Shown here one piece after another: positions 26,405 through 49,124 of a stretch of 64,000 nt of DNA (position 1 is its first letter; each line of letters begins with the position of its first letter). The notes beneath the pieces are model-generated. The model searched no databases. It had not been told where the DNA came from and saw nothing but the letters and a program-made list of their open reading frames with translations. A program made the position numbers and the translations under genes. Source of the stretch: Leptasterias polaris (lineage: Eukaryota; Echinodermata; Asteroidea; Forcipulatida; Asteriidae); the NCBI GenBank assembly GCA_037783415.1, contig JAZGTN010000035.1:248001-312000 (forward strand). The letters run 5' to 3'.

Positions 26405-26466
26405 CGTTATTGTCACCAATCACGCGTGTGACAAGATATAAAAGCAATAGCATTATATGGGCAGTC
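26405..26466 (+). promoter_or_regulatory. CCAAT/TATA promoter of the candidate secreted-peptide gene
   Basis: CACCAATCAC (CCAAT box, about 26414-26423) is followed by GATATAAAAGC with TATAAAAG at 26437-26444. The start would be expected about 25-31 bases after the TATA box, near 26467. An ATG at 26457 therefore falls outside the transcript. The downstream leader ends at a consensus splice donor, which supports this as a genuine core promoter. Confidence 0.5.
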
Positions 26467-26632
26467 AAAGCATTTCAAAGTCGCCCATCAGTATCACTAC
26501 AACGGGAACCGGTGATTTTTTACTCTACTTCTTCTGTTTTTTGTCATCTTTCAGACAGTCCGCTCCTCACCAAAGTTAGTCTACATAGTATAAAGCACAC
26601 ACACGCGCACACCCCCCAACACAGTCCACACG
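26467..26632 (+). other. 5' leader exon without any ATG (exon 1 of secreted-peptide model)
   Basis: About 166 bases from the expected start to a donor CACACG/GTAAGTGT (GT at 26633). The leader contains no ATG, as expected for a 5' UTR exon. The next exon in the model begins exactly with ATG, so translation would start at the splice junction with context CACACGATGC. Leader-only first exons are common in genes for small secreted peptides. The transcription start is inferred, not observed. Confidence 0.48.
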
Positions 26633-26908
26633 GTAAGTGTTCTTTTCATTTTTAAACTTCTTAACTGGGATGTTGTTTCTTTATACTTTTCAAATTTGAA
26701 GAATAGGTGGATCTTCCTGTATTTATAGCGTACGAGAAATCAAAACATTTGTGTTGGTAGATTCAGAGAAGTTCTCTCCATTAAGTTTGAGGCAACGGAA
26801 AACCGAAATGACAGCATTGAAGCCCGGCACCGGTGCTCAATTTTGTTCCGTTTCGGTCCGCTGACGGTATAGAGCAAGCCAAACTAACCAAGTTCAATCT
26901 TATTAGGT

Positions 26909-27062
26909 AATAAACCACAAGGGAAACTGACTGGATAAATTTTAAATATTTCTGGGTTGAACAAAGATAAATTCACCAAGCAGGACTTGAACCTGCGACC
27001 TCCGGAGTAACGTCGCGGCGTTCTACCAACTGAGCTCTACCAACTGAGCTATCTAGTCCTAT
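26909..27062 (-). mobile_element. tRNA-derived SINE (SINE-2) with duplicated A box, minus strand
   Basis: On the minus strand: CTAGATAGCTCAGTTGGTAG with the 14-bp unit CTCAGTTGGTAGAG partly repeated in tandem (plus-strand CTACCAACTGAGCT twice), then B box GCAGGTTCAAGTCCTGC, ATTTATCTTTGTTCAACCC and a tail ending CCCTTGTGGTTTATTACC. It lies in intron 1 of the peptide gene model. Confidence 0.8.
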
Positions 27063-28309
27063 TGTTGGCGATCTTCCGTGTGGTCAATGTCTTGTTCGGG
27101 GTGCCAGTCCTATAACTGCAGTATAGCTATAGGGATCACGCCGGGTAGTCAAGGTTGTCACGATGATAGTCATCACTTTATGATTGTTATCAGAAATACC
27201 AAGTGAACCTATTTTTTCTAAATTTTTCGCTTTTAAACGGTTCCTGTTTTGTCGTACTCAAGACGAATACATCAGCAAAAAGCTTTTTCCCAACAGAACA
27301 GCACCCGCGGCTTTCAGCGGAAATTTCACCGGTACCGTAAATTGAACGCCCGTAAAAACTTGACACTGTTTTAGAATCGGTCTTGATGTTTCTAAAAAGA
27401 TAAGTGCAGATAAAAATTATTGTACAAGAAACATCTTTACAAGCTTAGCTTCCACAAGTGCGTGCCGAGAACAGGTTGGATTCAATTTATGTTTGAATTG
27501 TCATAATCTTGTGACCGTATCAATCAAATGCTGCTGACTAAAATTAGACTAGTGTGTGAGTGTGATGGCGCCTGAAACGATTCAAAATGTGGGCCTGGTT
27601 TATCTCGCTAACAGGCACGGTGAAATTGAAATAATAGTCCTGCATGTTGAAATCAAAACGAGACTGGCTGTTTAAATAGTCTGCTTCCTGTATAGCCAAT
27701 AGTGTTCATTATTCAAAAAAGAGTTACTTTAGCAACCGATGTAAAAATATATATTCAAAGGAATCCATTGCTTGATTGAAGAATGTTTGCGTTGTTTGAG
27801 GTATTTCCCTTTTTTAGAAATATTTTTGTGTAATGATCATTAGAAAAAAAGTACCCTCGAGGCGAATTTCAGGAACAATCCGACCAGACAAACTCCGGCC
27901 TTGATTAACTGATGAGCTTGGTTGTATTCAGAGCAAATAGAAAATTGCATTTTGCTGAGACTAATCATCAGTTTAATACAATATTTTTGAGGGGAACTAG
28001 TCAATGAGACGTTTTGGAACATTCATGGATAAAATTGAAGTCTATTGTGAGCCCAAGGAGAAAAGGGAAGAAAGTAAACACCAATGAGAAAAATAGAATG
28101 GAGGAACAGGGATTTATTCCAAAGCCGATATCGAACTGTACAAATATGAAAATCATGCATAGTTGAAACCGAAAAGGGAAAAGCAGGCTTGATTTGTTTT
28201 CAGACATAAATTATTTTGAATTGATTTTAAAGTGATCTAACTTCGTAACTCGGGTTCGTTTAGCATGTGTGCCGCTTGAACCCAGGCGTTTTTCCCCTTC
28301 TGCAAATAG
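27063..28309. other. Intron-like AT-rich stretch
   Basis: No repeat family recognised and no supported exon. It lies in intron 1 of the peptide gene model. Confidence 0.35.
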
Positions 28310-28407
28310 ACTGGCCACTCACTCGTGGAGACAAGGTATTTTTGTTAAATAAGATTAAGGATTCAACCTTCTCGATCACCGATTTTGATTTGGGAAGTGC
28401 AAATCTG
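28310..28407 (+). CDS. Candidate 98-nt coding exon (hypothetical)
   Basis: A pyrimidine-rich acceptor (CGTTTTTCCCCTTCTGCAAATAG) precedes 28310 and a donor CTG/GTAAGG follows 28407. The frame is open on phase 1 in, phase 0 out, and reads WPLTRGDKVFLLNKIKDSTF then SITDFDLGSANL. Composition is protein-like and the stretch is not a known repeat here. It lies inside intron 1 of the peptide model on the same strand, but its phase does not fit before the ATG exon. It would belong to another transcript. Product not recognised. Confidence 0.3.
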
Positions 28408-29189
28408 GTAAGGGGTGCCACACCTAGAAATAATGCTCATTTGGTGTTACAATTCTCGCGAGAAACTGTATTATCTCGATGAAATATTCTTAAAATTGAG
28501 TGGAAATTGAATTTGCCACAAACACAAGTATCTGGTGTTTTTTTAAGGAAGAGTTATGAAAAGGAAATTTTCTTTCAGATGATTTGGTATTTCTGTTAAC
28601 GTTTTTTTTCCTTAGTAACTCCAAAATCCCGCAATCCCAAAAATCTGTTTTTCTCCTCACAAAGTTTCCTCTATCATTTTGATTCTTTTAAACTCGACAT
28701 TTCCCTTTTTTTTTTTTTTTCGACGTCACATCCCTGGTGAAAATAAAATCTATTTCGACTTCGATTCACAGACACATTGTGGTATCGAGTACACTCCATC
28801 GGAAGTTTTGCTGAAATTATTTCGGTATTAATTGAATTCGGCCGGTGAGTATAAAGTGCCCACCGGCTGCCATTCTAGCTCATATACCACGGGGGGGGGG
28901 GGGGGGGAATATATATATATATATAAGAAGAAGACGTAAGAAGAAGTAGAAGAGGTTGAAGACAACAGCCCGGACAGGCGAGTGCCTGATCATGTTATTA
29001 TTGATAATGTGTAACTCAATCCAGCATCTACATCAGTATTACGGCAACTAGTTAGGTGTTTCTCATATGTTGCTGAAGTCTCTTCCCACCTGTCAACTAA
29101 TTGGGGCGTGGACTAGGGGCCTTTTTGTATTTCTACAAAATCATCCAATTCACTGCTTTAAAGATTCATTTCTGGCGGGAAAACACGGT
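28408..29189. other. Intron-like stretch with homopolymers
   Basis: A T run lies at about 28697-28711, a G17 run at 28891-28907 immediately followed by (AT)n at about 28910-28924, then AAG-rich sequence. No gene seen. Confidence 0.6.
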
Positions 29190-31109
29190 GGGGTATGCAC
29201 CCATGGACCTTTAGACCTAGATTCAAAAGCCCCCAAGCATTTCTAATCCAGTTATATTTCTTGCTCGATGAGATTGTGGTCTCAAATGCGGGTATCATCA
29301 GTGTGTGGGGTTTGCGTCGAGAAGACAAATTACCACAGATGAAAAAGATGGGGGGAAAAAACATCCGTTTGTTTGGGCGAGCACGCCGGTTGTTAGCGTA
29401 GATACGTGTGATCTTCACATCTGCAGCTGCCGCGATCGGGGAACTCGACTCTGCTCGCCTGCGTCAATGTTGCAAGAGATAAATCATTGCTTGCAGTGGT
29501 CTGACTGTGGTAATGAGGGACAAGCATTCGATAAGAAGAAGAGTGATAGAAGAAGAAGAAAAATTCAAGCATTTTAGAGTGCAGTTGGGTCGGATTGCGA
29601 GAGTGCGTGATGGGAACATCGCACGGCAGGTTTTGAAACCTTCAGCGTTGTTCCCGGAGAGTTGGTGATGGTCGTGGTCTTTTAGGGCCGGCGTTTATTA
29701 CCGGGTGGGATTGCAATTTGTATCTTATCATCAGCACTCTTATTTACGACGATGTGTTGTATAGATAAGTCTTAAAAACGAGGGTGCATTCAGATTTTCT
29801 ATCTTCATCCACTTGACTTTTCACCCACCTGGTTTTGTACTATGTCCCGAAATAGTTTTTATTTTATTTATTTCGATGATAGAGTGGTGTTCTTTCATAT
29901 TTAATACATGAGTTTGCTCCGGCTCGATTTCGCACGAAAGGATCTGGCATTAGAATAAAGTGTCCATAGTTCCCATCCCAAAATGTGTTTCGCTGAGTTT
30001 CCATTCCGCATCTAAAGGGCAACCATTCGCGGTATCATCTGACTTGGGGGTGGGGCCGGTAAGAGGGTTTGGGCTGATAGAAGTCTTTGAAAGAAGGATG
30101 TAACCAAAGTTTTACCGGTAAAAAGGGCGCAAGCAATATGTGCAAAATTGTGCTTCAAGAAAACTGTGCGTGAAAGTTTGATCCTTTTTTGCAATTAATA
30201 AGTCGTTACAGGAAGGTTATAACTTTAGCGACAAAAATCGAACAGTATCGCCGTTTTTCCTTTTTTTTTTTCAGGAGCCATTTTATTGTTTATACCTTCA
30301 GTAACTGGGACAAAATACTTCTGTGCCTAATGGAAGAAGGGCGTAGAGCCTTACGCCCATTTCCGGGCACACGGCGAAGTGCTACAGACATTCCTTTATG
30401 GTTTCATTAACTGAAACTGTTCAACGATTAAACAATTGTGAAAGTTAAAAGCTTCCAAATACATTAAGAAACATAGCAGCACCATCGCAAATTTATACCC
30501 AGAAGTGACCAGGGTTAAAAAACTACTTTAAAGAACATTTTACACAAAAATTGACACCTCCCTAAGAGAAACAAACCCAAACACAAAAGACCGTTGTTTT
30601 CCATGTGGAAAGAAACTCAGTGATGAATCTATTTGAAAACTCAATTTCGTTGTTAACTTCCTTTTCTCCCCCGTAGAGATATCGAAAACCGTAAAAAACA
30701 TATGAAATCTATCCGTCAATTTCGATCGTCAACCTCACAGTCGCTGCGTAATTTAGGTAAGGTTGTTTCATTGACGCTACACTGGAAAGAAAAGAAGAAA
30801 AAAACCGAACATTTTCATTTCTGAAAGGCCCGTGTAACATCACACACCGGACAAACAATATTTCAAAGACAATTTGACACCGTCAAGAGTTGTTTTAATC
30901 AAATAAGCTTCAAGTTGGAAGTTAGTGAATGGTTTATTTCGAAAGCGACGAGGATAACATTGCCGGCTTTTCAACATTTAACTCTGCTGGCTCATGTCAC
31001 TGCATGATTGTATTTTTGAGCTGACTCTTTTTAAAGTGTAACGCCTCGCCATCCATGTTTCTGGATCAAGGAACACATTTTCATTTTAGTTCTCTTGTCG
31101 AGGGACTGA
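29190..31109. other. Intron-like stretch with weak open frames
   Basis: Three overlapping frames at 29158-29577 (both strands) are open. One plus frame carries six cysteines between residues about 35 and 70, but it starts next to no promoter and has no splice signals. An acceptor-like CAACCTCACAG and donor-like TTTAG/GTAAGG bracket only 16 bases near 30752-30767. Nothing here is called as a gene. Confidence 0.3.
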
Positions 31110-31265
31110 ATGAGAGATCCAGAGAGTGGGACGGCAACTAATAACGGTGTTGTGTGCGAGGAGTCGGGGACTGCCGGCGGACGCAAGGACAGTTTAGATC
31201 GCCTGTCACTCCAGGTTTTCTGCTTCTCATTTCGCTTCGGTCAGAAAGAGTTTCACCAGCAGTAA
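31110..31265 (+). CDS. Short complete ORF of 51 codons (hypothetical)
   Basis: ATG 31110 to TAA 31263. The product starts MRDPESGTATNNGVVCEESG, continues TAGGRKDSLDRLSLQ and ends in an aromatic segment VFCFSFRFGQKEFHQQ. It sits in a GC-richer patch inside otherwise AT-rich DNA and is not part of any repeat I recognise. No domain is recognised and no signal peptide is seen. It may be a first coding exon or chance. Confidence 0.22.
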   Translation: MRDPESGTATNNGVVCEESGTAGGRKDSLDRLSLQVFCFSFRFGQKEFHQQ

Positions 31266-31987
31266 TTTACATGGTTTACAGAGCGATAAAGCGTAGCAAC
31301 TGGTGATTGGATGCTGATGTGTTTTGACTAATGGCGAGAATACACGTTGCCTCGCCTCTGAGTTTTAGAGCAAGTCGTTTTCATAGGGATATGTACAATT
31401 TTTGAACCCATGGTTTGTGCTTGGTCTCTGGCTTACAGGCACGGTCCGTCTTTTTATAAAGCCCGGAGTTCCAAAAGCGCATGTTTTCAAAATGACCGAC
31501 ATAATCTATTAAAGCTGAAACCAACTTTGTTTTGAGCCACCAACCGTATTCGTCAATTCTCAGATGCATTACAAGGAAACTTGAGAAGCGTTCTGTGCAG
31601 CATATCGGTTTTTCGGCTGCGAGAGTTCGCGATGATACTTCATCGGATTAAGCCGTAGTTATAAATGCACATGTCAGGGGAAACTGAACTGCAACTTCAT
31701 CGATTTTAGATGAAGGATTCAGTTATGTTTTATGAACCCATTTTACGAGTATGTTGATCAGTGTGTTCTCTGTATACATGAACAGACGGTTTATTTATTT
31801 ATTTATTTATTTATTTGCTGTCCTTCATGACCAATTTAGTGATCATGGGTCGTGGTGTGAATCAAATTCATGTAATGTTTAAGTTCTAGATCGTGATAAT
31901 AATAAAATAAGACCGGAACAGCTTTGTGTTCGTCCAAAGAACAAGCACCTAATGTCTAGTTATTATTATTAGTACTCTGCAAAACCT
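31266..31987. other. Intron-like stretch with a TTTA microsatellite
   Basis: (TTTA)n of about 6-7 units at 31791-31817. A minus-strand 62-codon ATG frame lies at 31381-31569 with no supporting signals. Nothing else recognised. Confidence 0.5.
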
Positions 31988-32213
31988 GAGGTGGTAAAAT
32001 TGACACCATGGGTGTTGTTACATATAGATACCCCAAAAGAATCAAAATTTACACAATAGGCCTAGACTGTTAACATAACACTAACTTTTGCCAACAAAAT
32101 TACATTGGTGTTATTTTAACACCTTACGGTGTTAATTTTGATTCTCTCTTGGGTGTCTATTTGACAACACACACGGTGTCAATTTTAACACCCAAGTTTA
32201 TTTGTTGCAGTGT
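31988..32213. repeat. GGTGTT/AACACC-rich degenerate inverted element
   Basis: TGACACCATGGGTGTTGTTAC at the left and GGTGTCAATTTTAACACCC at the right, with several internal TGGTGTTATTTTAACACC palindromes and two TCAAAAT/ATTTTGA-type blocks. This word-palindrome style is widespread in animal genomes as degenerate non-autonomous elements. No coding capacity. Confidence 0.6.
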
Positions 32214-32859
32214 AGTAGTAGTGGTATTGTAATTGCCCCCATTATATAATTAAATATTCAACACTAAAAGGCTAATGGTTTTTATTTATCGCTATAGAGT
32301 TACCTGTGTGAGAAAGATGGACTGAAACAACAAAAATAATCAAACTAAACTATTCTGATAATGTTTATTTCCTATTGTGACGTTGAGGTCAGGATCTGTT
32401 GTTTGCCCAAGCTCTAGGAATTATAAGCAGAACTTCCCTCTCCACCCACAATCGCGCCCCACCCACTTCTTGTAATGACGTTGATAGGGACAGTGAATTC
32501 TCTTAAACGAAAGTAAATATAAATGGGATGACGAAAATTGAAAGTAAATATAGCTCACTCTGAAAAATAAACATCTTGAACAAAATTGATGGCTACACAC
32601 AAAAGTATTTTATGAGGAACAGTAATGCGTGTTTTAGTGGGGTAGATAGAGGAACTATCGTACCTTATATGTATACAGACATGGACTTTGACACAGTCAG
32701 AGTTTGAGAAAGATATTTGGTTATCAGGCCATTGAATTTTGAAAAAAATACATAGGTTTAACAAGCAATGTTGAAAATTTTGAAAATTGCTTATTATTCT
32801 ACCTATAATGGACAAGGACAGTTTTGCTGTACTATTTTATTTAGTTCGACAGTCAGTTC
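32214..32859. other. AT-rich stretch with family K fragments
   Basis: GACACAGTCAGAGTTTGAGA, AAAGATATTTGG and ATTGCTTATTATTCTACCTA near 32690-32808 are diverged matches to the repeat at 11120-11560. No gene seen. Confidence 0.4.
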
Positions 32860-33180
32860 GACCAGTATCCCGGGTCAGGCTTCCCACACATGGGTAAGGT
32901 CCCGGTGGGCAAAAGTTACCTGGTTTTCGGAGCCAACCAAACGGGTAATAGGACAAGTAAGTGTGTCAATGAGCGTCCGGGTCTGTCATCAGACTGTCCC
33001 AAACACTGGTCAGGTTCCGGGTCAGCCTTGATCCGGTTCTGAGTCAGAACCACTGGAAATAAGGGTCAGAATGTGTGCCTGGTTGCTGACCAAGACTCCA
33101 GGGTAGCAACATTGACTCAGTTTCCTGAGTCAAAACAACTAGAAATTAGGGTCAGACCGACCCACATTGAGTCACATCTT
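32860..33180. repeat. Degenerate GACCC/GGGTC-rich repeat, copy 3
   Basis: Repeated CGGGTCAG, GAGTCA and GGGTCAGA words at irregular spacing for about 320 bases, as at 4105, 6545 and 44120. Confidence 0.55.
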
Positions 33181-33679
33181 GTCAGACTTAATCAATACAG
33201 ATCCTGGAATCCCAAAAGTGAAACAAAAGAGGAAAATCCCTCGAGATTTTGAACTAATATTTGCGAGGTGCTCATTTTAACTGAAATAACATTGCATTAC
33301 AATAACTTGCTCTTTTGTATTTACCGACTGTGTATTATAGCTTAATACTGTGGCCACTGTGCAACTCAGCCTCTGGGATACAATATGGTGTGAACAAACC
33401 AATAACAATAACAATCTGCTTCATAACAATTAGCCGGTGACAGCATAAAGCGCTGGAGTATTTCGAAATATTGTACCGTGAAAGATTGACCAATCACTTC
33501 CTGCTTTGAATAAGGATAGTTGAAGTCTTAATATTACACAAGGGAGATGCATCTCAAATCACTGACATGTGCATTGGATTTTCTCTTGATAATCTTAATA
33601 ATCCTTGTGAAGAATTGTTGTTAGTATTGCTATTACTTTGTTGTTATTACCAATATTGTTATTATCTTCAACAATACAG
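33181..33679. other. End of intron 1 in the peptide gene model
   Basis: AT-rich. The last 60 bases are T-rich (TTGCTATTACTTTGTTGTTA and following) up to the acceptor AATACAG at 33679. No repeat recognised. Confidence 0.4.
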
Positions 33680-33746
33680 ATGCAGTCGTCAACAGTAGTT
33701 ACCTTGGCAACGTGTCTGATCATCGCCACTATCGTATCAGAGTCAG
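33680..33746 (+). CDS. Signal-peptide exon of a candidate secreted peptide precursor (exon 2)
   Basis: The acceptor TCAACAATACAG ends at 33679 and the exon begins exactly with ATG. It encodes MQSSTVVTLATCLIIATIVS then ES and one extra base (67 nt, phase 1 out), ending TCAG/GTAGGG. The residues form a classic signal peptide: short polar N-region and a hydrophobic core of about 13 residues. Joined to the exon at 46134 the split codon becomes Ala and creates Ala-Ser-Ala, an ideal signal-peptidase site. A small phase-1 signal exon after a leader exon is typical of neuropeptide and hormone precursor genes. I do not recognise the family. The GTAGGG donor is usable but not the strongest. Confidence 0.55.
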
Positions 33747-34300
33747 GTAGGGCGAAAAAGCATTTTGTTACTTCTAAATATTTCTTTTGAGATACCGAGT
33801 TTCTGAGAGAAGTTAATTGATGGTCTTAAAACCTAAGTGTGGAATCGGCACTTTGAGTTTGACTTGTGACGATGCTTTGTCATGTTTGAGATGTAAGACA
33901 TGAAGGTGAAGTTAAAGAAGGACTGCGGGGTAAATGTCACTGTGTTTGATACCCTCAAGCGCAATTTTTGTCAACAAAATAAATAAATCGATGATGTCGC
34001 ATTTCAAATGGTATGTACATTTTAGTACAGAGAAATTTCAGTTCATTCCTGATTTTTGAAGATATTTAATCAAAACGGCATTGAAATTGACCTTATGACT
34101 GGTGCAAATAAATTCCACTTTTGGAATTTACGGACCCATTGGTTTTTGGTGTCCGATGACGTCATGTTTCAAATTTCGCTTCGAAAGAGTATAAAATAAA
34201 AGGGACGTTTTATATGAGACTTTTCCCCACTTTATGTGGACTCTTAGGCATTGGAAAATGAGTGCATCACAAAACTCAATTTTTTGACATTTAAGCCCCT
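33747..34300. other. Start of intron 2 in the peptide gene model
   Basis: Mixed to AT-rich with no supported exon and no repeat recognised. Confidence 0.35.
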
Positions 34301-34655
34301 CTTTAAAGGCAGTGTGTAGTTTTGGTATTTAGGCCTACTCCACAAGTTAATGACCATAAAAACTTACTTGGTAAAGAGCACTGGAGAGCTGTTGATATTA
34401 TAAAACATTGCTAGAAAAGACCACCTTTGAAGTAATGTAGTTTTAGAGAAAGAGGTATATTTCTACCTACAAATTTGAATCTGAGAAGGACACTTTTATG
34501 CAACAAGGTCGGTTTTTTCTTCCATTATTTTATTACAATTTCGATGACGAATTTAGCCCAATTTTTCACTGGTCTGTTATTTTATGCATCTATTGGGATA
34601 CACCAAGTGAAGATACTGGTCTTTGACAATTACCAAAAGTAAACCCAGCCTTTAA
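34301..34655 (-). mobile_element. MITE-A, copy 3 (reverse)
   Basis: Begins CTTTAAAGGCAGTGTGTAG and ends CCAGCCTTTAATA. Blocks AAAACTTACTTGGTAAAGAG, GGAGAGCTGTTGATATTATA and GGGATACACCAAGTGAAGAT are the complements of the 12975 copy. It lies in intron 2 of the peptide model. Confidence 0.8.
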
Positions 34656-36049
34656 TAAACTTAACTTTTACTTAGACTCGCTTAAATCGTAACTCTCCCG
34701 TTTCGTAAAGTAAGACCTAAAGTCTAACAGCCCTGCGCATACCTCACGGTATACAGAAAACGTTCATAACACCACCGTGGAATAAAGGATTTCACTAAAC
34801 ATAGTATGCATAGATTGAGTGCACCGACTAGTTATAAAAGATCTGGACATTGGATACACTCGGCATGAAGGGAAGAAACATTAAAAAATATACGAAGCAA
34901 AGTTTTGGTCATTGTATGAAAAGTATTGTGTGGAGGAGGCACAAGAAAAAATGAGGGGTGGTTGGGGACGCTTAATGTTTTGCATGGGTCCTGATTAAGT
35001 TCATTTCCGAATGAGAAATTAAAATACTTGTGACCATATTTAGTCTGTGAAACTTGACGGGAGCAAGCACGACTAGAAAGCGGCGTTTTCTTGAGCAACT
35101 TACAAATTGCAGCCTGTATCTCACGAGCCTTTCCTTCCTGCGCGATGTCTCCCCCCCCCCCCCTTTCCAATTTTCCCGGAAGGAATTTTGCAATTCGAAC
35201 CGTCTACCACAGTAATTATACACCAAAATTTGAGAAAAGATTTGCAAGGGTATCCAGGCCTGGCGGAATCGATATGTAGTAAACAATGTTTTGATTATGT
35301 ATGTTTTAACTCACGTTTTTCTCAATTTAAGAAAATAAAATACTTCAACTCAAAACATTTAATAAATACATATTAAACAGAGTTGAAACAATGGCAGTCA
35401 AATTAGAATGAAAACAAATTAAATATAGGTAAAATAATACAAAGTGATATAGGGTCGTGGTTATTCCGCTTTTACTTTTCGTAGCTTCAAATCCGTTTAA
35501 TAAAATTAATATAGAATCATACAGAATAGTAGAGTTTATGATCTTTTTAAAGCAAAAAGTTGTTACATTGCGAAACTCTCTGATTGAATAATTCAGCTTC
35601 AAAATTAAACAAATACTGCGTTTCAATTTATAATTTAGAAGAAAAAAAATCATTACTTTACACATCCAACTGCGCAGTTAGCGTCAATAACGTGATAAAT
35701 GTATAGGATACGATGAAGAAATATTCAGTTTTAGATGTGGGGGGAAAAACAACATTGGGGAAAACCGACGCAATCCGAAATGCACTAAAAATCTAATCCA
35801 GGCGAGGCGCCGGTCTGAGGTGAGATTCGAACCGTTGTCCACAGATTTGAAAGGCACTGTAAAGAAACCGCTGAGCCAACAAAGAATCAAACATTATCTT
35901 CTCCTGCGAAGACGATTTTGAACATCACTGATGGAACATCGAGTTGATTCACAATCGGTCCCTTTTCAGAACCAGCACATTTCATTACGCAGACACAAGG
36001 GGTTACGGCAAAACGTTTCTTCCGTGCAAAGCTTCAAACGTTACAAATA
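34656..36049. other. AT-rich intron-like stretch
   Basis: A C13 run lies at 35151-35163. The long minus frame at 35345-35665 is in very AT-rich DNA with low-complexity residues and is not called. A tRNA-like remnant is listed separately. Confidence 0.4.
35813..35880 (-). mobile_element. tRNA-like SINE head, minus strand
   Basis: Minus-strand TTGTTGGCTCAGCGGTTTCT (A-box-like GGCTCAGCGGT) and B box ACGGTTCGAATCTCACC lie about 45 bases apart, as in a tRNA-derived promoter. The B-box side matches the remnant near 3968-4000. The spacing between the boxes is longer than in a functional tRNA with no intron, so this is a SINE head or pseudo-tRNA. Confidence 0.5.
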
Positions 36050-36218
36050 AATTACGCTCAACGTAAGCGTGTTTTATAGGCTAGCAAGGACTTCGTGTTT
36101 CGCGTGCGTACTTCCACGTAAAACACACATTTACACAGCTATAGCAGAGAATGCTGACCGTAAGTGCTGACATTTACGCGGTAAAGCAGAGCCATGAAAT
36201 CAGGCCCAGTTCCCGCTT
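36050..36218. mobile_element. MITE family M, copy 2
   Basis: Ends with GACATTTACGCGGTAAAGCA then GAGCCATGAAATCAGGCCC, closely matching AGAAATTCGCGGTAAGCA then GAGCCATAAAATTGGGCTC at 45668-45708. The left boundary is uncertain. Confidence 0.5.
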
Positions 36219-39282: not shown

Positions 39283-39297
39283 TACACTGAGCATCTT

Positions 39298-39314
39298 GGG
39301 GGGGGGGGGGGGGG
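39298..39314. repeat. G17 mononucleotide run
   Basis: Run of 17 guanines ending in an AGAGATG stretch. Confidence 0.95.
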
Positions 39315-40566
39315 AGAGATGCAAGACAGCTATTGGGAGACGGAGTAGGGGAGCATCTACGAAGTAACCGCATCTTAATCCTGGCCGTTATCAAGTTAGA
39401 AAGAACCATCTGCTGCGGTGAGAGGAGATTGTTTATCGCGAGATGTCTTCGTAAAGTGACCGTAATAAAAAATTATAGTGACGGTGTTGTTGTTTGAGTA
39501 ATGTTAAGCCTTTTATTGTTACGTTATTTTATAATTTTTTTAATGCGATCATAATCTGTCTAAATTCCCCCTCCCCAAGTTGGTTGTAGTTGATTTTAGT
39601 ATGAAGGATTTTTACTGCCATTGTTCCGTGAATTGCAGAAAACATATCGGCAACATTTTAGTATAATGACTAGTGTCATAAAGAAAAACGATACCCCGTT
39701 AGATAAACAATCTAAACGTTCACAATCTTGCACTGACATCAAATCTTCTTCAGAGGTATTTGCCGCCAAATATATATATATCGTCTGCCCTAATATGTAT
39801 CGCTAAATCAACGGGCACATCAGGTCTGGTCAGAATAAGTAATCTTTGTATTGCATTTAGGTGTTTTCTTTATTTTATTTTAAAGACAAGCTTGAACAAA
39901 ATCGACAACAGGTGTTTTTTGCTGAAAATCATTAAAAATGTTTTCAGTCAATAATGAAATTGAGTTCACGTGAGAGTAAACAGAATATAATTGTTTAAAA
40001 AACAATCTTTTTGAATACCCTTCACCGGTGCTTTTCACGAAAGATTCGCGAAAAGCCCCGTGACGTCATCACTCCTGTAACGTCATTTTTGGAGCTCCGT
40101 GTTGTTGCAAAAACAAATCATTATCCCACAGATGACGTCAAAGTATTATCATTTTGACGCAAACCGTCATCGGCAGAAGTGTAGCTAGTCTTTGAAAACT
40201 TAAGGTTGATTTTTTGATTGATATTACGAAAAATTCAGAAATATAAACTCATTAAAATTACAATTAACGATAATCAAACACATTATAAATACGTTTAAAT
40301 AGCATTCCCGTTAATTTTTTCCCGCTCAAATAGCTGTTTAAAGGAACATAATTTATGCATAGAATCCCCCTCCTCCCTTGTCTGAGCCACCATCGCTGAG
40401 GTCAAACAACGGAAACGTGAAGGCCCTTACGCGCTGCACACAACTCTCCGCCAATGACAGGTCTTCATTGACCTCAGAGAGGGCGCTGTTTTTCGGCTTG
40501 TGGCGTCATTATTCGGGTCTATTGGTATCCTACTTTGTTACAGTATTTTTCCCAAAAGTAAGGTTA
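39315..40566. other. Intron-like stretch with CRE-like palindromes
   Basis: TGACGTCATCACTCC at about 40060 and GATGACGTCAAAG at about 40133 flank an AACGTCATTTTTGGAG, a cluster of ATF/CREB-like motifs. A TATATATATATCG run lies near 39770. No gene seen. Confidence 0.4.
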
Positions 40567-40656
40567 TGTCCGAATCAAGCGGCGTTGGCTACGGCTATGG
40601 CTGTCCGGCTGCAACCAGCGACCATAGCCACTGTCGAAGTCGTCAATTCGGACACT
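40567..40656. mobile_element. Family E element, copy 2
   Basis: TGTCCGAATCAAGCGGCG at the left and GTCGTCAATTCGGACACTG at the right, with GGCTACGGCTATGGCTGTC and CATAGCCACTGTCGAAG inside. Inverted termini around a 90-bp body. Confidence 0.7.
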
Positions 40657-40689
40657 GCCTTGAACCACGCTTCTTGAACTTATTCATCC

Positions 40690-40880
40690 CTTGGGATGAC
40701 GTCACATGCGGGCTACTGTCTGCCACGGTCGCCATTTTGTGTGTCAAAATGCACGTACGAGTTATGGTAAACGGGAAGCACAGCGTTGCCTAAAATGCGC
40801 ACTACAGCACTGTACAACACACGAGGACATTGACTTCAGAAATGGGGCAACAGGAATTATTGTTATGATGACGTCAGGTG
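40690..40880 (+). promoter_or_regulatory. Promoter-like CRE and YY1 motifs with a short open frame
   Basis: GGATGACGTCACATG (CRE at about 40697-40704) is followed by CGGTCGCCATTTTGTG (YY1-type GCCATTTT near 40731). An ATG at 40706 opens a 62-codon frame with RCLKCALQHC near its middle. A donor-like ATGACGTCAG/GTGAAT lies near 40877. Such CRE plus YY1 combinations mark TATA-less promoters in animals. No start site is known. Confidence 0.25.
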
Positions 40881-41216
40881 AATTGTATCAATAGATAGCT
40901 TTACTCATCCCGAGGAAGGAACATTTTCTAGTTTTTTAGTTTTATATTCTTCTTCATCATCTACTTTTCGATAATCACATTGTATCCGACCAAATTAACA
41001 TCGGTGTGAAAACTTCATCAAAGATGGTCACGTTTTTGGAAAAAGCTGAAGGAAAACAGGGAATTCGTGCTCGTCCATGTGCGAGCTTATGTCACGGTTG
41101 AGGTAGTCGAAGTAAGCAGCGGTGGTTTTAAGCAGTCTCCAAAATGATTTTGTTGATTTTGACATTATTTCCAATGTTTTTGAGGATTGATCCACTGGCA
41201 TCAACTTTATAATTAA
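40881..41216. other. Stretch with one minus-strand open frame
   Basis: The minus ORF around 41028-41231 contains STKSFWRLLKTTAAYFDYLN and an HMDEHEFPVFLQLF segment, amphipathic and protein-like, but it begins inside a SINE tail and has no splice support. Not called. Confidence 0.3.
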
Positions 41217-41283
41217 GTAATAATAAACCACAAGGGAAACTGACTAGGTAAATTTTATAATCAGTGTACTTTCAGATTGAACG
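41217..41283 (-). mobile_element. SINE-2 3' fragment, minus strand
   Basis: AATAAACCACAAGGGAAACT then GACTAGGTAAATTTTA matches the 3' part of the SINE-2 copies at 26909 and 44660. The tRNA head is absent, so the copy is 5'-truncated. Confidence 0.7.
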
Positions 41284-42224
41284 TGTCAATTTTGCCTGAG
41301 TGTACGTTTTCTTTAGTTATACGTTACAGTTATTTATTTGTAAGCACCAAGGAAACAGAATAATCATATTTTCTGTGTCCTATAGAGATATCCAAAAAAG
41401 GGTAATAGAATCAATCTTGTGAAATTGTAAGCTGGCGATAGATCAAGGGCCTTTATTTGTATCGTAACAAGAAACACGAATGTCACAATAGAAGCATTGG
41501 CGGAAGTAGCTGAGGGAGGCACAAGGACGTGTAGTCTTCACTTCAAGACGCCTCAAAGGTCACTTCAGAAGTTATTTGAGACCTTCATGTCTTATGTTGG
41601 ACTGGCATTAGGGTACGAGCGTTCCCAGACCGCACAGCGTCTCTCCACCGATCCTTCATCGGAAATCCTGCTGTGCGCTGTCCGAAGCTTTTACGATGGA
41701 GTTCCAGCTCCCCCAACCTCTTAAGATCAGAAAAAAGGGACCAGGCGAAATTAACTCACCAGGTACTACTTTCTTGGCAAATAATTGGGTCGATTCCTTC
41801 AACCAAACTGATTTCTTAATTTCATTTTGTGTTGTTGCGATTTATTTTAATGGTAAAAAAAGTAGGGGCGCGCTTTGTCGTCAACATCCCCCGCACGCTG
41901 AGTGTCAGCTCGTCATGTTAGGTGAATTGAGACACCACGCTGATTATTTGCCAATTTTCGCGCGCAATGACACTGAGGAATTTTTTTCCGCTTAAAAAAA
42001 AAAAAAAAAAAAAGGGAAAGAGAAGAAAGGAGACGTTTAATGCTTTTAAGCCCCAGGGAACTGGACTATTATGGAAAGTAATTTGTCACTCAGGGGGGGG
42101 ATGATTAATAATGAAGACCATGATGTATTTAGGATGATGAAGAACAGTAAAATATTACTATCCCTGGAGGGGAAAGTAAAATTGGATCTTCATTTTTTTT
42201 TCTTTTCTTTTTTACCTCTGTAAA
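41284..42224. other. Intron-like stretch with an unclear GC-richer island
   Basis: At about 41460-41760 the sequence is GC-richer. An ATG at 41696 opens MEFQLPQPLKIRKKGPGEIN and meets a donor-like CACCAG/GTACTA at 41761. No promoter motif is recognised. An A-run of about 17 lies at 41996-42013. Confidence 0.35.
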
Positions 42225-42890
42225 TGCCGTCGAAGAAGTTGTTCGGCGGTGAACGAGCTGTATTTTAGAGATGATATCGCACTAAAGAGAAAATTACAAA
42301 ATATAATAAGTAGAAAGTTAATAATTATAAATCTTAATAAATATTGAAAAAGGGGAATAAATAACAGACAATTTGTGTCTTTTTACCCGTGTTTTAATAT
42401 TTTTTTAAGCAACTGTTCAGCGGCGATTGAGATGTGGGCCTAAATAATGGTATTACACAAAAAATATATAAATACAAACAAATAAATATAAATTTGTTTA
42501 AAAAAATGTAGGTAGCAAAATTTAAAACAAAGAGATGAAATACTAAACTAACGGAAGCGTATTGCCGCCACATGAATCAAAAAGTGTCTCTCTTATTGTG
42601 TACTTACACGATAAATATCTTTTACATGCACGATAAGTTTGGACTTATCGTGTACGTATACGATAAGTTATCGTGAACGTACACGATAAGTTATCATGTA
42701 CGTACACGATAATATAGATTTTTTTTTCCCTGTGAAGGCAATACGCTTCCGTAAAAACGGTGGTGGGTAAAATATAATTTGTTTAACTCTTGAATTATCC
42801 GTCCGAAGAAACTGTTCGGCGGGAAACGAGATGGTAACAAAAACAATTGCGCACCACAAAGAAATAAAATAGATATAAAAAATGATGACA
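42225..42890. repeat. Three diverged tandem copies of a roughly 180-bp unit
   Basis: The block AGAAGTTGTTCGGCGGTGAACGAG (about 42235) recurs as GCAACTGTTCAGCGGCGATTGAG (about 42409) and GAAACTGTTCGGCGGGAAACGAG (about 42805), each followed by an AT-rich ATAAATA tract. The first spacing is about 174 bases and the second about 396. Subtracting the 202-bp inserted element at 42551 gives about 194, so the array predates that insertion. Confidence 0.65.
42551..42752. mobile_element. 202-bp inverted-repeat element with a palindromic ACGATAAGT core
   Basis: Perfect 16-bp inverted termini ACGGAAGCGTATTGCC / GGCAATACGCTTCCGT. The core holds at least five alternating CACGATAAG / CTTATCGTG words with TACGTA spacers, so the single strand could fold into a long stem. 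It is inserted in the tandem array at 42225-42890. A related left end lies near 20310. Confidence 0.85.
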
Positions 42891-44119
42891 AATGTTTGCA
42901 AAACATACTAAAGGCATACCAGATTGGCATCTATTGGAAAACTAAACGGACGATGTTTTTTAATCAGAGAGTTTTCTGTTTTTAGAAATGAAATTATTTT
43001 CCTGCGATACGTCAGTTCTTATAGAAACTTGGATTTGAAAATCGGAATCAAAATTAATAATAATTAATAATAATTATTTAAAAGTGCACAAAATTCGGGA
43101 GGAAAAAACACACATTTAATTTCATATTCTCAAAACGATTGATTCGATTTTAATTCCCCCCCCCTTTTTGTTTACAGATTTGTTGTAGGCCTATGGCATG
43201 GTTATTGAAAACTATACAACGTGATTAAAAGCGTTTTTGGAGTAGTTCATGAAAACTAGAATTATATTTACTTATGATAAAATAAATAATATACAATATA
43301 AAAAAAAAAACATGTATATTTATAAATACAAAATTTACTATAAAGACTTTTTGAAGGAGCTGCATTTTTGCCCGATCGCAAACCACAAAGACGGTGCCCC
43401 TTCCGGGGATGAAGCTAGTCTCTGGGTGCCTTCATTTACTCTCGAAAATATGACAATCCGCTGACATTAAAAATACAAGTGTTCTCGACGTCGGCGCTAT
43501 TGGCCCCATCCATGTCTCCACGCAATTATGATGTGATGCATTAATTCAACGGGTCACATTGAAGTGCGATGCACGCGGGTTACCGAACCACGTCTGGCAA
43601 ACATTGCAGAGTCAATTTTGCCAAAAAGCCACTAATTCGGATGCGTTGCTTCCGTTTGTGTCTTCGGAGAGGAACACTTAAACTACTTTTCACCCCCGCG
43701 GTCGCTTTTGTTTTGCATCTGTAATACATCGGCCCCCAGCACGGTCATTTTAATAAATATGAAAGTGATAAAAAGCTTGTACGGATGCCCTTAAACCCTG
43801 AAGGGTTACCCGCAGTAAGGAGCGAATTGGGTGTAAAAGAAGAAGAAAACAAATTGCACTTAGATCAGATTTATAATGCGCGGGAGTTGAGTACTCTCTT
43901 GCATCATTTACAACCTGTAACCCTGCCATAAAAAAATGTGTTCAATATCAAATAATCGATTGTCAATTCTAGTAATTTGTCTTCCCCTCGGTAAACGTTT
44001 TTTATATGATTAAGGACACATCTTATTGAACCAATGAAAAAACAACTCATTTTCATACCGTCCGTTCTATCGGGTTGTTTTTCTTCAACTTTAGGCTAGT
44101 GTGCTTTCGGTAGTTCCTA
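42891..44119. other. AT-rich, then GC-balanced stretch, no gene seen
   Basis: 42890-43340 is strongly AT-rich, and the frame there is low complexity. 43480-43860 is balanced, with no supported frame. A C9 run lies near 43157. Confidence 0.4.
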
Positions 44120-44432
44120 GTTTTGACTCGGATTCCCTAATGCGTCTTAGTTGTACAAATAAAAAGAGGATCATGAGTTAGAAATTGACCCTGAGTCAGA
44201 AACAGATCCAAGATCTAAGACTGACCCGATTTGGGGTCAGCTATGGGCTCCGGATTGAGTCCGGTTTTAGCCGGACTCACTCGAGGTCAAACACGACACA
44301 GTTGCCAGATCAGGTTAACCAACAATCCGAGCCTATAGTTATGGTGGTTTAATCCTGACCCTGAATCGCGCTGACCCAAATTGGTCTTTACTCTGACCCT
44401 GACCCCAACATCAGGATCAATTCTGACCGGGG
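44120..44432. repeat. Degenerate GACCC/GGGTC-rich repeat, copy 4
   Basis: Recurring TTGACCCTGAGTCAGAAAC, CTGACCCGA, GACCCTGACC and CTGACCCAAATTGG words at irregular spacing. Confidence 0.6.
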
Positions 44433-44659
44433 ATTTACTTAGATGTGAGTGAAACAGCTGATGTATAGTACTGAAAACTAGGATCATAGGTACCCTGCAC
44501 ATGATCCAAGACGAGAAATCTACTGAGAGACAGTTTGTCACAAATCTTGATAATGATAGTTTCTTGCATATTTTATCGCCCTTTTAACGTTGCTAATGCC
44601 ATCTTTTTACAACTGACTGTAATTGTATAATGTCTTTCTTATTGTAGTTAATCTTAAAT

Positions 44660-44801
44660 AATAAACCACAAGTGAAAATGACTGGGTAAATTTTAATTAA
44701 TAATTGGAGTTGAACAAAGAAAAAAATGACTAGAGCGAAATTTGAACCAACGACCTCCGGATTAACGTGTCGGCGCTCTACCAACTGAGCTATCTAGCCC
44801 T
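44660..44801 (-). mobile_element. tRNA-derived SINE (SINE-2), intact A box, minus strand
   Basis: Minus strand: GGCTAGATAGCTCAGTTGG then TAGAGCGCCGACACGTTAAT, B box GTTGGTTCAAATTTCGC, then TTGTTCAACTCC and the CAGTCATTTTCACTTGTGG tail. Unlike the copies at 23487 and 26909 it has a single A box, so it shows the unduplicated head. Confidence 0.8.
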
Positions 44802-45044
44802 ATGTTGGCGGTCTCCCTATTTTGTCAGTACCTTTGTTTTTGAATGTAGAGTTTTTTGTGGCCGCAAATCAGCTGGTTGAGTATCAATAAAACCATTTCA
44901 AAACAAGTTGACCTATGCGTGGGAGATGACTTACCGGGCACTGCGCAAGCTCAGACCTACATAACCAATGGAAGTTAGTTAACTGCTGCCACCTATCGTT
45001 TCAAAGTCTCCCATTGGATGTGATCCCCGTAATGGATTGATACG

Positions 45045-45166
45045 CCGCGCCGAATCAAACGACTTTGGCTACGGCTACGGCCGTTGGCTGCAACAACGTT
45101 GAAGAATAGGACTTTTCGGCAATCTAGCCATAGCCACTGTCGAAGCCATTAATTCGGACACGACCT
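45045..45166. mobile_element. Family E element, copy 3
   Basis: GCGCCGAATCAAACGAC at left, AATTCGGACACGACC at right, with GGCTACGGCTACGGCC and AGCCATAGCCACTGTCGAAG inside. Immediately to the right (about 45183) is CTCGCGCGTATCTGAACAT, the family F terminus. Confidence 0.65.
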
Positions 45167-45299
45167 TACAATAGACCGCTCAAGTCTCGCGCGTATCTGA
45201 ACATCGGGATCCAACGTGATTTTGGTGTCCTTTACACACTTGAAGATAGGGCCCGATCTCGTGGCTTTTCTTACCACAGAAATTCTTCGCTTAGATGTT

Positions 45300-45636
45300 C
45301 AGCACCGTAACTAGGGTAAAATTTTAGGGGGCACAAGGGCCAAGTTACCGTTTTCTTTAAAAAACAAATTTTCAGCGCTTTACAATTTTTATGTAAAAAT
45401 AATTAGGTGTTAGTGTAAAAACTGAAATTTTCTGCGTGTAAATAGAAAAATAGTTTTAAAATCATCGAAATTATCACATTCAAACTCTGGAAACCTCCAA
45501 TCCCCAATAGTCAAGATTTCAAATGAGGGCACCAGGTGCACCGTGGGTGGGGGGGGGGGGGGGGGGCATGGACATCAACTGGCGGGAGAGGGGGGGGCAC
45601 GAGTACCCCTTGCCCTCCTAGTTACATCACTGCTTC
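45300..45636. mobile_element. Family L element with G18 core, copy 2
   Basis: Left edge AGCACCGTAACTAGGG and right edge CCTCCTAGTTACATCACTGC are imperfect inverted termini. The interior has GGGGGCACAAGGGCC near the left, a G18 run at 45549-45566 and GGGGGGGCACGAG near the right. About 337 bases, non-coding. Confidence 0.65.
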
Positions 45637-45647
45637 GTCATCATGTC

Positions 45648-45718
45648 AAGCGCATGGGCTGTAAGCGCAGAAATTCGCGGTAAGCAGAGCCATAAAATTG
45701 GGCTCATCAGGTTCCCCA
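45648..45718. mobile_element. MITE family M, copy 3 (fragment)
   Basis: CGCATGGGCTGTAAGCGCAG then AAATTCGCGGTAAGCAGAGC and CATAAAATTGGGCTC, matching the end of the copy at 36050-36218. Frames through it are repeat artefacts. Confidence 0.55.
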
Positions 45719-46133
45719 AAATAATGATCGTACACGCGCTAGTATTGCTTTTTCTACAGGAGACATGTGTCGTATATACGTATGAACCCATATTGATATC
45801 GTTGTCACACCCAATGTCACATTCCCCTCATCATTTCGATGTGGTCAATACTGCGTCTCGGATTCCTGGCCCAGTTCTGGCTCAGGTTTACCCAAACCCT
45901 GTCATTGTGTTCTTCCTTATAATGCTACCATTATTCCCTGTAAAGAATGACACGTGTGACAGAGCATAAGGGTTGCTTAAATAAGCTAAACCATCGTGTC
46001 CATAAAAAGAGTAAATCAATAAAAATGCATTGCGGAATATACTGCTGACGATGAAAAAAAACCTACCCAAAAACCAAAACAACTCAATATTGCTAAAGTA
46101 TAATTCTGCTTTTCTCTTTTCCTTTCTCTCCAG
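45719..46133. other. End of intron 2 in the peptide gene model
   Basis: No repeat recognised. The last 35 bases are a strong pyrimidine tract (TTTTCTCTTTTCCTTTCTCT then CCAG) leading to the acceptor at 46133. Confidence 0.45.
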
Positions 46134-46178
46134 CCAGCGCATTAGCCTTCCAAGGTTCTCAAGACAGAGCGAAAAGAT
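46134..46178 (+). CDS. Symmetric 45-nt micro-exon of the secreted peptide model (exon 3)
   Basis: One of the best splice contexts in the window: about 25 pyrimidines then CCAG/ at 46133, and GAT/GTAAGTAA after 46178. It is 45 nt long and phase 1 at both ends. In frame with exon 2 it reads A-SALAFQGSQDRAKR plus one base. The junction gives Ser-Glu-Ser-Ala-Ser-Ala, so cleavage after Ala-Ser-Ala is predicted. The exon ends in Lys-Arg, a prohormone convertase site, which would release LAFQGSQDRA. Being symmetric, it can be skipped without a frame change. The evidence is splice signals, phase and the two processing motifs. No homologue is recognised. Confidence 0.5.
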
Positions 46179-47311
46179 GTAAGTAACTAACCTTTCTTTT
46201 ACTCCATTCGGAACAAGATTTGACAAATTACCAACGGGGGGCCGTAATAACCATTACATTGCCTTCTTCTTCTCCCCCTGAAAAAAGAGAAGAAAAAAAA
46301 CACGCTGGCGACGGGATTGTCTCCTTCCCTCCCGGGGGTACGTGTCAAACACAGAAAGCATTAGAAATTTAACTACCTCTTCGGGAGATTGTGTTAACTC
46401 TCTCTCTGTCCCCCTTTACCCCTTGCTGCTACATATGTTTTTAGTTCCACGCAATACATATGCTGAACTCCATTAGGGGGAAACAGATTGATAAAGTGTC
46501 GGCGCTCATCTCGGCTGATGCTCCTCGCCATATCTTCTTTTTGTTTGTGGGTGCCCGGGCCCTTATATAGTTTAGCGGCGTTATTTTACATTACGTTTGA
46601 AACTGCTGCTATCGTGTGAAGATTATAGCACACTAACACGATATGACAGAACACCTCGTGGCAAGACTTGGCCACGTGTAACTTGAGCCCCAGTGCGTTA
46701 TCATCACATCCAGGATTATGTTTCATCGATATCATAATTATAAAGACGGTCTGATATCTTTATCTGTGTTTTAGGGTTGGGGTGGGTTAGGAGGTGATAA
46801 CTCATTCATGCTTTGGTTACTTCAAAAAGAGAATAATTCGGCTGTAAATCAAGTCAATTTGGGGTAAGATGGAGAGACTTGATTTGGGAACTTATATCCT
46901 TATCAAAACTCATTGAGATTTGGTTGTGCTTGTCTTCACTTATCGGTGGCTTCTAAATGAAACATAATTTGTGCGAATGCTCAGTTTCAATTTCAGGTTA
47001 GGCCTGCATAAAGAGTTGTTTACAGTTAATGGCAGGTCTACCGGTCCGTGGATGGCTACAGGTTAAAAAGCAGTGCATTCCTATTCTTCAATTGGTAGGC
47101 TGTGTGTCGGCAGATTTTCCTGGTGAATTTTCATTGTTAACCTAGTTCTGATCATGCGCACATCTCCGAGAACAATGGATTTACATAAGAAGTCTGCTGC
47201 CACCTAGAGTTCTGTGAATTCTTTCCATTGCAGGAGGCTTGTTCGTGTTTATTATAGGGACACAACGTCGGTCACCCGTTTTAACCCTCATCTGTTTGTT
47301 TCATTTCACAG
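46179..47311. other. Intron 3 of the peptide gene model
   Basis: A CCCTTATATAG segment near 46560 resembles a TATA box, but no exon follows clearly. The final 30 bases (CATCTGTTTGTTTCATTTCACAG) form a strong acceptor. No repeat recognised. Confidence 0.4.
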
Positions 47312-47344
47312 TGTTCTGGGTGGACAAAAAGAGCGTGAATGAAG
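47312..47344 (+). CDS. Symmetric 33-nt micro-exon of the secreted peptide model (exon 4)
   Basis: Strong acceptor TTTCATTTCACAG/ at 47311 and strong donor GAAG/GTAAGA after 47344. The 33 nt are phase 1 in and phase 1 out. After exon 3 it reads L-FWVDKKSVNE plus one base, with a dibasic KK. If KR (exon 3) and KK are both cut, the pentapeptide LFWVD would be excised; otherwise LFWVDKKSVNE stays joined to the tail. Without splicing, the frame stops within ten codons. The exon is short enough to be missed by gene finders. Confidence 0.45.
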
Positions 47345-48242
47345 GTAAGAAACATCAATCCCACAGAAGTTGATGTTAAGGGGTGGGGTGGGGTGGAGTG
47401 GGGTTGGGGAGAGGATAGCCTCGCTACCATGGGCAGCGCGCCGTATCGCCCGCTAGCTTCCATGCATGTACGATTGAGAAAGGCATTCTGGGAAAGCGGC
47501 GAGATCGTACACTACTGGGAACGAGGTTGGGGAGAGGACAACTATCAGTATCATGGTCAAACTTTGACAGTGTATCACCCTTAAACTTGTATTGAGTTGG
47601 AGATTGCAGAGCTGAATCTCAACTCGTCTGGCAAAGAACTAATAATTATATGATTGCACCATAATAAATATATACAGTTACCATTTTCACTTAAAGCACT
47701 TATAACTATACACTATTAACAGTTCTGGGTAAAAATTTACCCGGAAGAATCACAGTGGGCCACGCTGACTGTGTGCCAAATCCCATGCTTATATCTTTCA
47801 AAGGCACCATTCCCCTATTTCCCCCATATGTAACCCACTACATGAGTGGTTTATACAGGTTCATAATGCATATTCGATTTAGTAAATCAAATAAGAACGT
47901 GAGTATTTGAGTACATTTTATTCGCACATGTCAGACATTCAGACTGGAATCTCGGGACCTTACCTTTTATCCGGATCAAGTTCATCGAAGTCCTGACATT
48001 AGCACCCCCCCCCCCGCCCCCGATCTTTACTGTGTAGCGTACTATTATGAAGATTCTGTTTTTTGGGCGGAAATAATTAAGTTCCTTCATCCAGTTTTCT
48101 CTAAGCACAGCATGCAACCAACCCATATATGAAACCTATATGAAACATAGTCATCGAATTCAGCGGTCATGGTTTAGTGAACATAAGACGGAAGCAATGT
48201 AAATTGTCAAGGAATTTGTGGCAAGGAATTTGTGGGCATATT
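47345..48242. other. Intron 4, first part; GGGGT tract and family K fragment
   Basis: GGGGTGGGGTGGGGTGGAG lies near 47379 and an imperfect GTTGGGGAGAGGA duplication at about 47404 and 47525. The frame at 47339-47584 starts just inside the donor of exon 4 and is not called. At about 47650-47830, CTGACTGTGTGCCAAATCCC and CAAAGGCACCATTCCCCTAT match family K. A C11 run lies near 48005. Confidence 0.4.
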
Positions 48243-48315
48243 TCTTAGGGTTAACCCCGGTGTTTCTGGTTCTCATAACTAGCACCCAATTGTTTACAGG
48301 TTTCACAGTGATTAA
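48243..48315 (-). mobile_element. SINE-1 3'-body fragment
   Basis: AACCCCGGTGTTTCTGGTTC then TAGCACCCAATTGTTTACAG matches the complement of the SINE-1 tail at about 12240-12300. No tRNA head is present. Lies in intron 4 of the peptide model. Confidence 0.55.
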
Positions 48316-48789
48316 GTCCAAGTCTACCATAGTGAATATCATTGCTCGAGAACGAAACTGTTTTTTAGTCGCTATATCAACCACGGTACTTAAGCATGTA
48401 TTTATGACTCTGTGTCTAGATACCGGGGTGCAGGAACATGTACTGGGATCCCACATATAGATTTGAATAAACGATTTTTTTGCTCATGGTGTCAAATTCG
48501 GAGCCATATTGAAATTCGGATGCATGATCGTTTGAAATCTGATGTGAGCGTCGTATCAAAATACACGGCTCTGGTCTGACTTTGAATAATGTTCACGTTT
48601 CATTTTAACAAAATCAAGAATCTGTTTGCAGTCCGTTTTATTTTTCTCTCTGTTACACTTTTCATTTACTTTCATTTATTGATTTTGGTTTTGAAGCCAG
48701 CAAGGATTCTCAGAAAAGCGAACTTAGTCACAATACTAGCCATTAAGAACCCCATGTTGAGAAGACAAAGAAGGAAGTTTCTGTTTTAG

Positions 48790-48965
48790 AAGTGCCCGGG
48801 GAGGAAAACCACAAAGAATTATTCAAGGGAAAACCCACGCAATCAGGGATCATCGGAGATCATCGGAAGGCGAGGATTATACCTCAACGCCAACCCGACC
48901 ACCCTTTAAAGAAAAAAGACGCTGCTAATTCTGTCGATACTAAAATTGCTAACATACACGGGTAA
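48790..48965 (+). CDS. 3'-terminal coding exon of the secreted peptide model (exon 5)
   Basis: The acceptor AGTTTCTGTTTTAG ends at 48789. Entering in phase 1 from exon 4 the frame reads Glu then VPGEENHKELFKGKPTQSGI, IGDHRKARIIPQRQPDHPLK and KKDAANSVDTKIANIHG, stopping at TAA 48963. It is hydrophilic, cysteine-free and rich in basic residues, with a KKK cluster and single-Arg/Lys sites, as in peptide precursors. The full model is 106 residues with its only cysteine inside the signal peptide. The same frame is also open upstream to a TAA at 48744. An alternative phase-1 acceptor at 48696 would give a shorter product ending SKDSQKSELSHNTSH. No ATG lies in this frame, so it is invisible to ATG-based ORF lists. 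Confidence 0.45.
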
Positions 48966-49104
48966 AAACACACGATTTTTCAGGTTGAGGGCTTATGTTA
49001 TACTTGTTATTTATAGTCCGTATTATCCAAAGAGCAAATTTGTCTCTAAGACAAAATGCTTGATTGTGTACCTTCATAATTCTTACACCGACTGGACAAA
49101 TTAA

Positions 49105-49124
49105 AATAAATAAACTCATAATAA
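49105..49124 (+). terminator. Clustered polyadenylation signals after the peptide gene model
   Basis: AATAAA occurs at 49105 and 49109, and ATAATAAAC at about 49118, roughly 140 bases after the stop of exon 5. This would give a short 3' UTR. The hexamer is frequent in AT-rich DNA, so this is supportive only. Confidence 0.4.

Follow-up and report, generated by a model that had tools for sequence, protein, structure and literature searches.

A very probable np18-type neuropeptide precursor gene with five coding exons in the starfish Leptasterias polaris

A 64,000-nucleotide (nt) stretch of the genome of the starfish Leptasterias polaris (GenBank assembly GCA_037783415.1, contig JAZGTN010000035.1, positions 248,001 to 312,000, forward strand; hereafter the window) holds a gene that can, with high confidence, be read as five coding exons behind a probable non-coding leader, encoding a 111-residue precursor of the np18 type. 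A preliminary description of this DNA had proposed a secreted peptide precursor of 106 residues that fitted no named neuropeptide family. Comparison with starfish homologues keeps the first three coding exons of that model and replaces its last one by two others. In the published accounts available, the active product of np18 is described differently from paper to paper, either as a pentapeptide or as a large cysteine-rich polypeptide, and a correct gene model makes a direct test possible by supplying cleavage sites and candidate peptides with their masses.

Gene model and starfish homologues

A protein search with the 106-residue product returned three proteins at E values up to 10 among four search candidates, all of them uncharacterised: Asterias amurensis P0001, Acanthaster planci P0002 (LOC110987268) and Patiria miniata P0003 (LOC119729377). 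Over residues 1-48, the window product is identical to these proteins at 47/48, 41/48 and 40/48 positions, respectively. By exon, the match to P0001 is 21 of 22 residues for exon 1, 15/15 for exon 2 (14/15 for each of P0002 and P0003) and 11/11 for exon 3. Because these 48 residues, both junctions included, recur almost unchanged in the three starfish proteins, the boundaries of coding exons 1-3 (Table 1) are taken as exact and the exons as biologically real. The reported 106-residue join, exon lengths (67, 45 and 33 nt), splice dinucleotides and phase-1 joins were all reproduced from the sequence, and the two phase-1 micro-exons are borne out by homologues that span their junctions.

The remainder of the gene was located by searching the window with P0001 (tblastn). 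This returned DSTICVRASSADVI at 50133-50174 (E 0.012), corresponding to exon 4; a second match, to the cysteine domain, lies at 51713-51856 (E 1.65e-16) and corresponds to exon 5. Exon 4 has the acceptor ttcacag and the donor gtaggt and is entered in phase 1; exon 5 has the acceptor ttcatcag, is likewise entered in phase 1 and ends in the stop TGA. Order, strand and phase all fit a position downstream of exons 1-3. The corrected product is 111 residues long, its coding part is interrupted by four introns, all in phase 1, and it ends at 51862 rather than before 49000. Over this full length, identity is 80% to P0001, 66% to P0002 and 63% to P0003. The starfish that carries the gene stands nearer to Asterias amurensis than to either Acanthaster or Patiria.

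The last exon of the preliminary description, at 48790, was thus misplaced, and the length of 106 residues with it. None of P0001, P0002 and P0003 has the part encoded there, and it was rejected. Its 58-codon open frame is followed by AATAAA, as would be expected if the model described a true alternative isoform. Such an isoform is nonetheless highly improbable: the protein search reached its three starfish proteins without any match through that part, and the acceptor chosen has a pyrimidine tract under a 60% limit. Comparable frames are also common nearby. Fifteen phase-1 open frames (at least 50 codons, 60% pyrimidine tract, AATAAA within 400 nt) start in 47400-62500, one of them from an acceptor that lies 3 bases past the rejected one, and dropping the AATAAA condition raises the count to 19; the true last exon, with 48 codons, is shorter than the 50-codon limit and lies outside this count.

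At the 5′ end, a CCAAT box and TATA box followed by an ATG-free stretch running to GTAAGT occur together only once when the two strands of the window are taken together. The pattern was written after the preliminary model had been seen, so its unique occurrence is support and not proof. Splicing of the probable non-coding leader to 33680 places an A at position -3 of the ATG, and one non-coding exon is also reported for the np18 gene of the sea cucumber Apostichopus japonicus (PMC6586643). At the 3′ end, an ATTAAA at 52237 is closer to the stop than the candidate AATAAA.

Table 1. Features of the np18-type gene in the window (positions count from the first base of the window)
Feature	Position	Strand	Remarks
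Candidate core promoter (CCAAT + TATA)	26405..26464	+	Predicted from sequence
Candidate non-coding leader exon	26465..26632	+	ATG-free; donor gtaagt at 26633; start is a guess
Coding exon 1	33680..33746	+	Start and most of putative signal peptide; residues 1-22 plus base 1 of codon 23
Coding exon 2	46134..46178	+	45 nt; end of putative signal, FQGSQDRA spacer, KR; residues 23-37
Coding exon 3	47312..47344	+	33 nt; LFWVD, KK, SVNE; residues 38-48
Terminal exon of the preliminary description	48790..48965	+	Judged outside the gene; missing from 3/3 homologues
Coding exon 4 (absent from the preliminary description)	50134..50178	+	45 nt; DSTICVRASSADVIT; residues 49-63
Coding exon 5 (absent from the preliminary description)	51717..51862	+	Cysteine-rich domain and stop; residues 64-111
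Candidate polyadenylation signal AATAAA	52394..52399	+	532 nt past stop; pattern only

Membership of the np18 family

A named family does fit the corrected product, by dibasic site, cysteine count, LFWVD and exon number: the gene is very probably a new member of the echinoderm family np18. The Asterias rubens precursor Arnp18 (KT601737; Semmens et al. 2016, PMC4772807) is described as a 113-residue protein with a predicted 27-residue signal peptide, a dibasic site at 36/37 and, within residues 38-113, nine cysteines. P0001 equals the published length, site and cysteine count, with 113 residues, a lysine-arginine pair (KR) at 36/37 and nine cysteines thereafter. The window product shares with Arnp18 the site at 36/37, the nine cysteines that follow and LFWVD, the single peptide predicted for Arnp18 (PMC5627052), and its N-terminus may be a signal peptide like that of Arnp18; it differs in length and, with P0001 as a stand-in for Arnp18, in its second domain cysteine, at 69 as against 70.

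Other echinoderms supply further points of comparison. According to PMC5627052, a single mature np18 peptide occurs in A. rubens, Strongylocentrotus purpuratus and A. japonicus, with nine, eight and eight C-terminal cysteines, respectively. The precursor Ovnp18 of the brittle star Ophionotus victoriae (MF155258) likewise combines LFWVD with a cysteine-bearing C-terminal region, but has four copies of the peptide where the window product has one, and its partial sequence contains at least four cysteines. Ajnp18 of A. japonicus (MF422081; PMC6586643), the one np18 gene used for the comparison of exon number, has five coding exons of six in all, as against five coding exons in the window gene by homology, and eight cysteines to set beside the eight-cysteine core described below; unlike the window product, it is 121 residues long. 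The sea urchin member Spnp18, or Sp-Np18, belongs to np18 by published naming, and its expression has been described (PMC6209648).

Several points weigh against this assignment. Family identity is judged from published features (length, position of the dibasic site, number of cysteines, LFWVD, number of exons) rather than from direct alignment, and the window product, at 111 residues, falls short of the 113 of Arnp18. If that published length holds, the difference speaks against A. rubens as the source of this DNA. No non-asteroid protein was found at E values up to 10, either in the protein search or in a profile search for distant relatives, which gave the same three proteins among 87 candidates. 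A cysteine-rich polypeptide has been proposed as the active product in both A. rubens (Arn18, 76 residues; PMC4772807) and A. japonicus (Ajn18, 96 residues; PMC6586643), and the A. japonicus text, in the portion available, names no dibasic site. A full-text search for LFWVD did not list PMC6586643 among its results, so the main text of that paper does not spell the peptide.

In that full-text search, PMC5627052 was the sole relevant paper for LFWVD, the one further match being an unrelated public-health paper, and four strings taken from the precursor matched no paper. No functional study of np18 and no np18 receptor was among the literature matches listed, and PMC9971248, on the Acanthaster nerve cord, gave no match to np18. 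For AmedPCNP18, a candidate precursor from a crinoid, the product described is amidated, 60 residues long and contains eight cysteines (PMC9793003); the shared number 18 may be chance.

Processing and candidate ligands

The proposal of a secreted, dibasic-processed starfish peptide precursor is supported, and KR and a lysine pair (KK) are conserved in all four starfish sequences. Read by eye, the N-terminus has a stretch of hydrophobic residues and two Ala-x-Ala motifs, at 23-25 and 25-27. The putative signal peptide would route the precursor into the regulated secretory pathway, where a proprotein convertase would cut after KR (36/37) and KK (43/44) and a carboxypeptidase would trim the basic residues. 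Three products would result: FQGSQDRA (alternatively LAFQGSQDRA), the pentapeptide LFWVD and a 67-residue C-terminal polypeptide with eight core cysteines and one extra. The calculated MH+ values are 679.345 for LFWVD, 908.422 for FQGSQDRA and 1092.543 for LAFQGSQDRA. By analogy with sea urchin larvae, expression may be expected in serotonergic sensory-neurosecretory cells: in these larvae, serotonin-positive apical sensory neurons express Sp-Np18 together with Sp-AN and Sp-PPLN2, and around the mouth the overlap varies (PMC6209648).

Conservation is concentrated around the short peptides. Residues 26-45, which comprise LA, the spacer, KR, LFWVD, KK and S, show no variation in any of their 20 columns in the four-sequence alignment, compared with 28/63 invariant columns for residues 49-111 (Fisher p 2.7e-6) and 18/25 for the signal region. 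LFWVD itself (residues 38-42) is unchanged in every sequence and flanked throughout by KR, which occupies 36/37 in the window product and all three homologues, and KK. The preliminary description had suggested it as a possible product, and it is indeed the published predicted np18 peptide (PMC5627052). The stretch LAFQGSQDRA, put forward as the main product, is also invariant; its release in that form is unproven, since the 27-residue signal of Arnp18, carried onto the alignment, would leave FQGSQDRA instead.

LFWVD is the most likely receptor ligand, a view we hold with moderate confidence. Counting against it is the spacer FQGSQDRA, which is as invariant as LFWVD; conservation therefore does not single out the pentapeptide, and LAFQGSQDRA or FQGSQDRA may be a second peptide. 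Contrary to two papers (PMC4772807 and PMC6586643, in the portions available), the pattern of conservation favours the short peptides over the cysteine domain as conserved ligand. Those papers' proposals, together with eight cysteines conserved in all four sequences, speak for a gene with the same structure whose active product is the large cysteine-rich polypeptide, the short preceding stretch being merely a propeptide. That account is the less plausible one, although by no means negligible: the polypeptide region is far less invariant than residues 26-45, and a brittle star has four copies of LFWVD (PMC5627052). Because its sequence varies so much more, the role of conserved ligand is less likely for the cysteine-rich domain than that of a partner in folding or sorting, or of a second product.

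The cysteine-rich domain and change in this lineage

The claim that the precursor is free of cysteines after its signal falls with the misplaced last exon, because the corrected product has nine cysteines after the dibasic site. P0001 and P0002 also have nine and P0003 has eight (Cys12 of the signal excluded). Patiria P0003 lacks the cysteine at residue 53 that is present in the other three, and the shared core is therefore eight cysteines. The second domain cysteine lies one residue closer to the first in the window product (65/69) than in the three other starfish (65/70).

Domain and structure searches gave no significant assignment. A Pfam scan of the four members at E values up to 1 returned Toxin_3 alone, in one member (E 0.39), and a scorpion-toxin-like reading, with solved-structure matches at E 0.6 and 1.5, was rejected as not significant. 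The structure search gave three matches in all (E 0.31 to 1.5), the top one an unrelated enzyme. An AlphaFold model of P0001 built from three sequences had low confidence (mean predicted local distance difference test score 53.8, predicted template modelling score 0.40), and no disulphide pattern is therefore claimed. Precursors of vasopressin/oxytocin-type and NG peptides that carry neurophysin resemble the window product in layout only, with an N-terminal short peptide followed by a cysteine-rich domain. Neurophysin is larger and has more cysteines than the np18 cysteine domain, and the same Pfam scan of the four members showed no neurophysin match.

Residues 49-111 appear to have changed quickly in the lineage of the window gene. 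Lineage changes were counted in gap-free columns in which Acanthaster and Patiria have the same residue. Residues 49-111 contain 12 changes confined to the window product and none confined to A. amurensis (two-sided binomial p 0.0005), a count that assumes a gapless alignment around residues 69-76, the region of the shifted cysteine. Part of it arises because the second domain cysteine has shifted by one residue; without the five changes in residues 69-76, a hand count gives 7 to 0 (p 0.016, same test). Residues 1-48 have one change particular to the window product and none to A. amurensis.

These counts are compatible both with fast evolution of residues 49-111 and with a paralogue, in which case the window gene would be a second np18 copy with a diverged last exon and not the strict orthologue of P0001. 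The 12-to-0 count and the shifted cysteine would suit such a copy, whereas the near-identity to P0001 over residues 1-48 argues against it. A tblastn search of the window with the exon products also found no second copy of any exon at E below 0.1, its three weak matches having E values of 0.12, 0.45 and 0.76. A paralogous origin is accordingly unlikely.

Exon layout and LFWVD copy number

Fast change aside, the exon layout bears on how np18 precursors may acquire additional peptides. LFWVD occupies a 33-nt exon with a phase-1 intron on either side. Duplicating this exon would preserve the reading frame and supply one more copy of the peptide, and copies of LFWVD could multiply in this way. The increase of copy number within precursors was left unexplained in PMC5627052, where unequal crossing-over was suggested, and the layout gives that question a checkable answer. 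Further copies of the exon were sought in the window: seven FW[VILM][DEN] motifs occur on the two strands taken together, and only that at 47314 continues as FWVDKK. Both the phase-1-bounded LFWVD exon and the fast change of residues 49-111 go beyond the published np18 accounts, as far as these are available.

A broader scenario can be offered tentatively. With symmetric phase-1 micro-exons, duplication of the 33-nt exon may have raised LFWVD from one copy, as in starfish, to the four of a brittle star; FQGSQDRA may be an overlooked second bioactive peptide; and the cysteine domain may be free to evolve fast, and may have done so in this lineage. That all of these hold jointly is doubtful.

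Other features of the window

Within the 12.4-kilobase intron of the gene, an Rfam tRNA match lies on the minus strand at 44727-44799 (36.8 bits; gathering threshold 29), with no ARAGORN call. Three open frames stand close together at 61509-63560 on the plus strand, and the PHD-finger match of the last is weak (E 0.026; 15 bits, cut-off 24); they are possibly a mobile element or another gene. The minisatellite at 9406-9880 has a 30-nt unit with an underlying 7-nt repeat and is open in several frames, so the long open reading frames there are probably artefacts. At 16769-17499, units of 27 and 42 nt, with a base period of 3 nt, form a tandem array that carries long low-complexity open reading frames on both strands.

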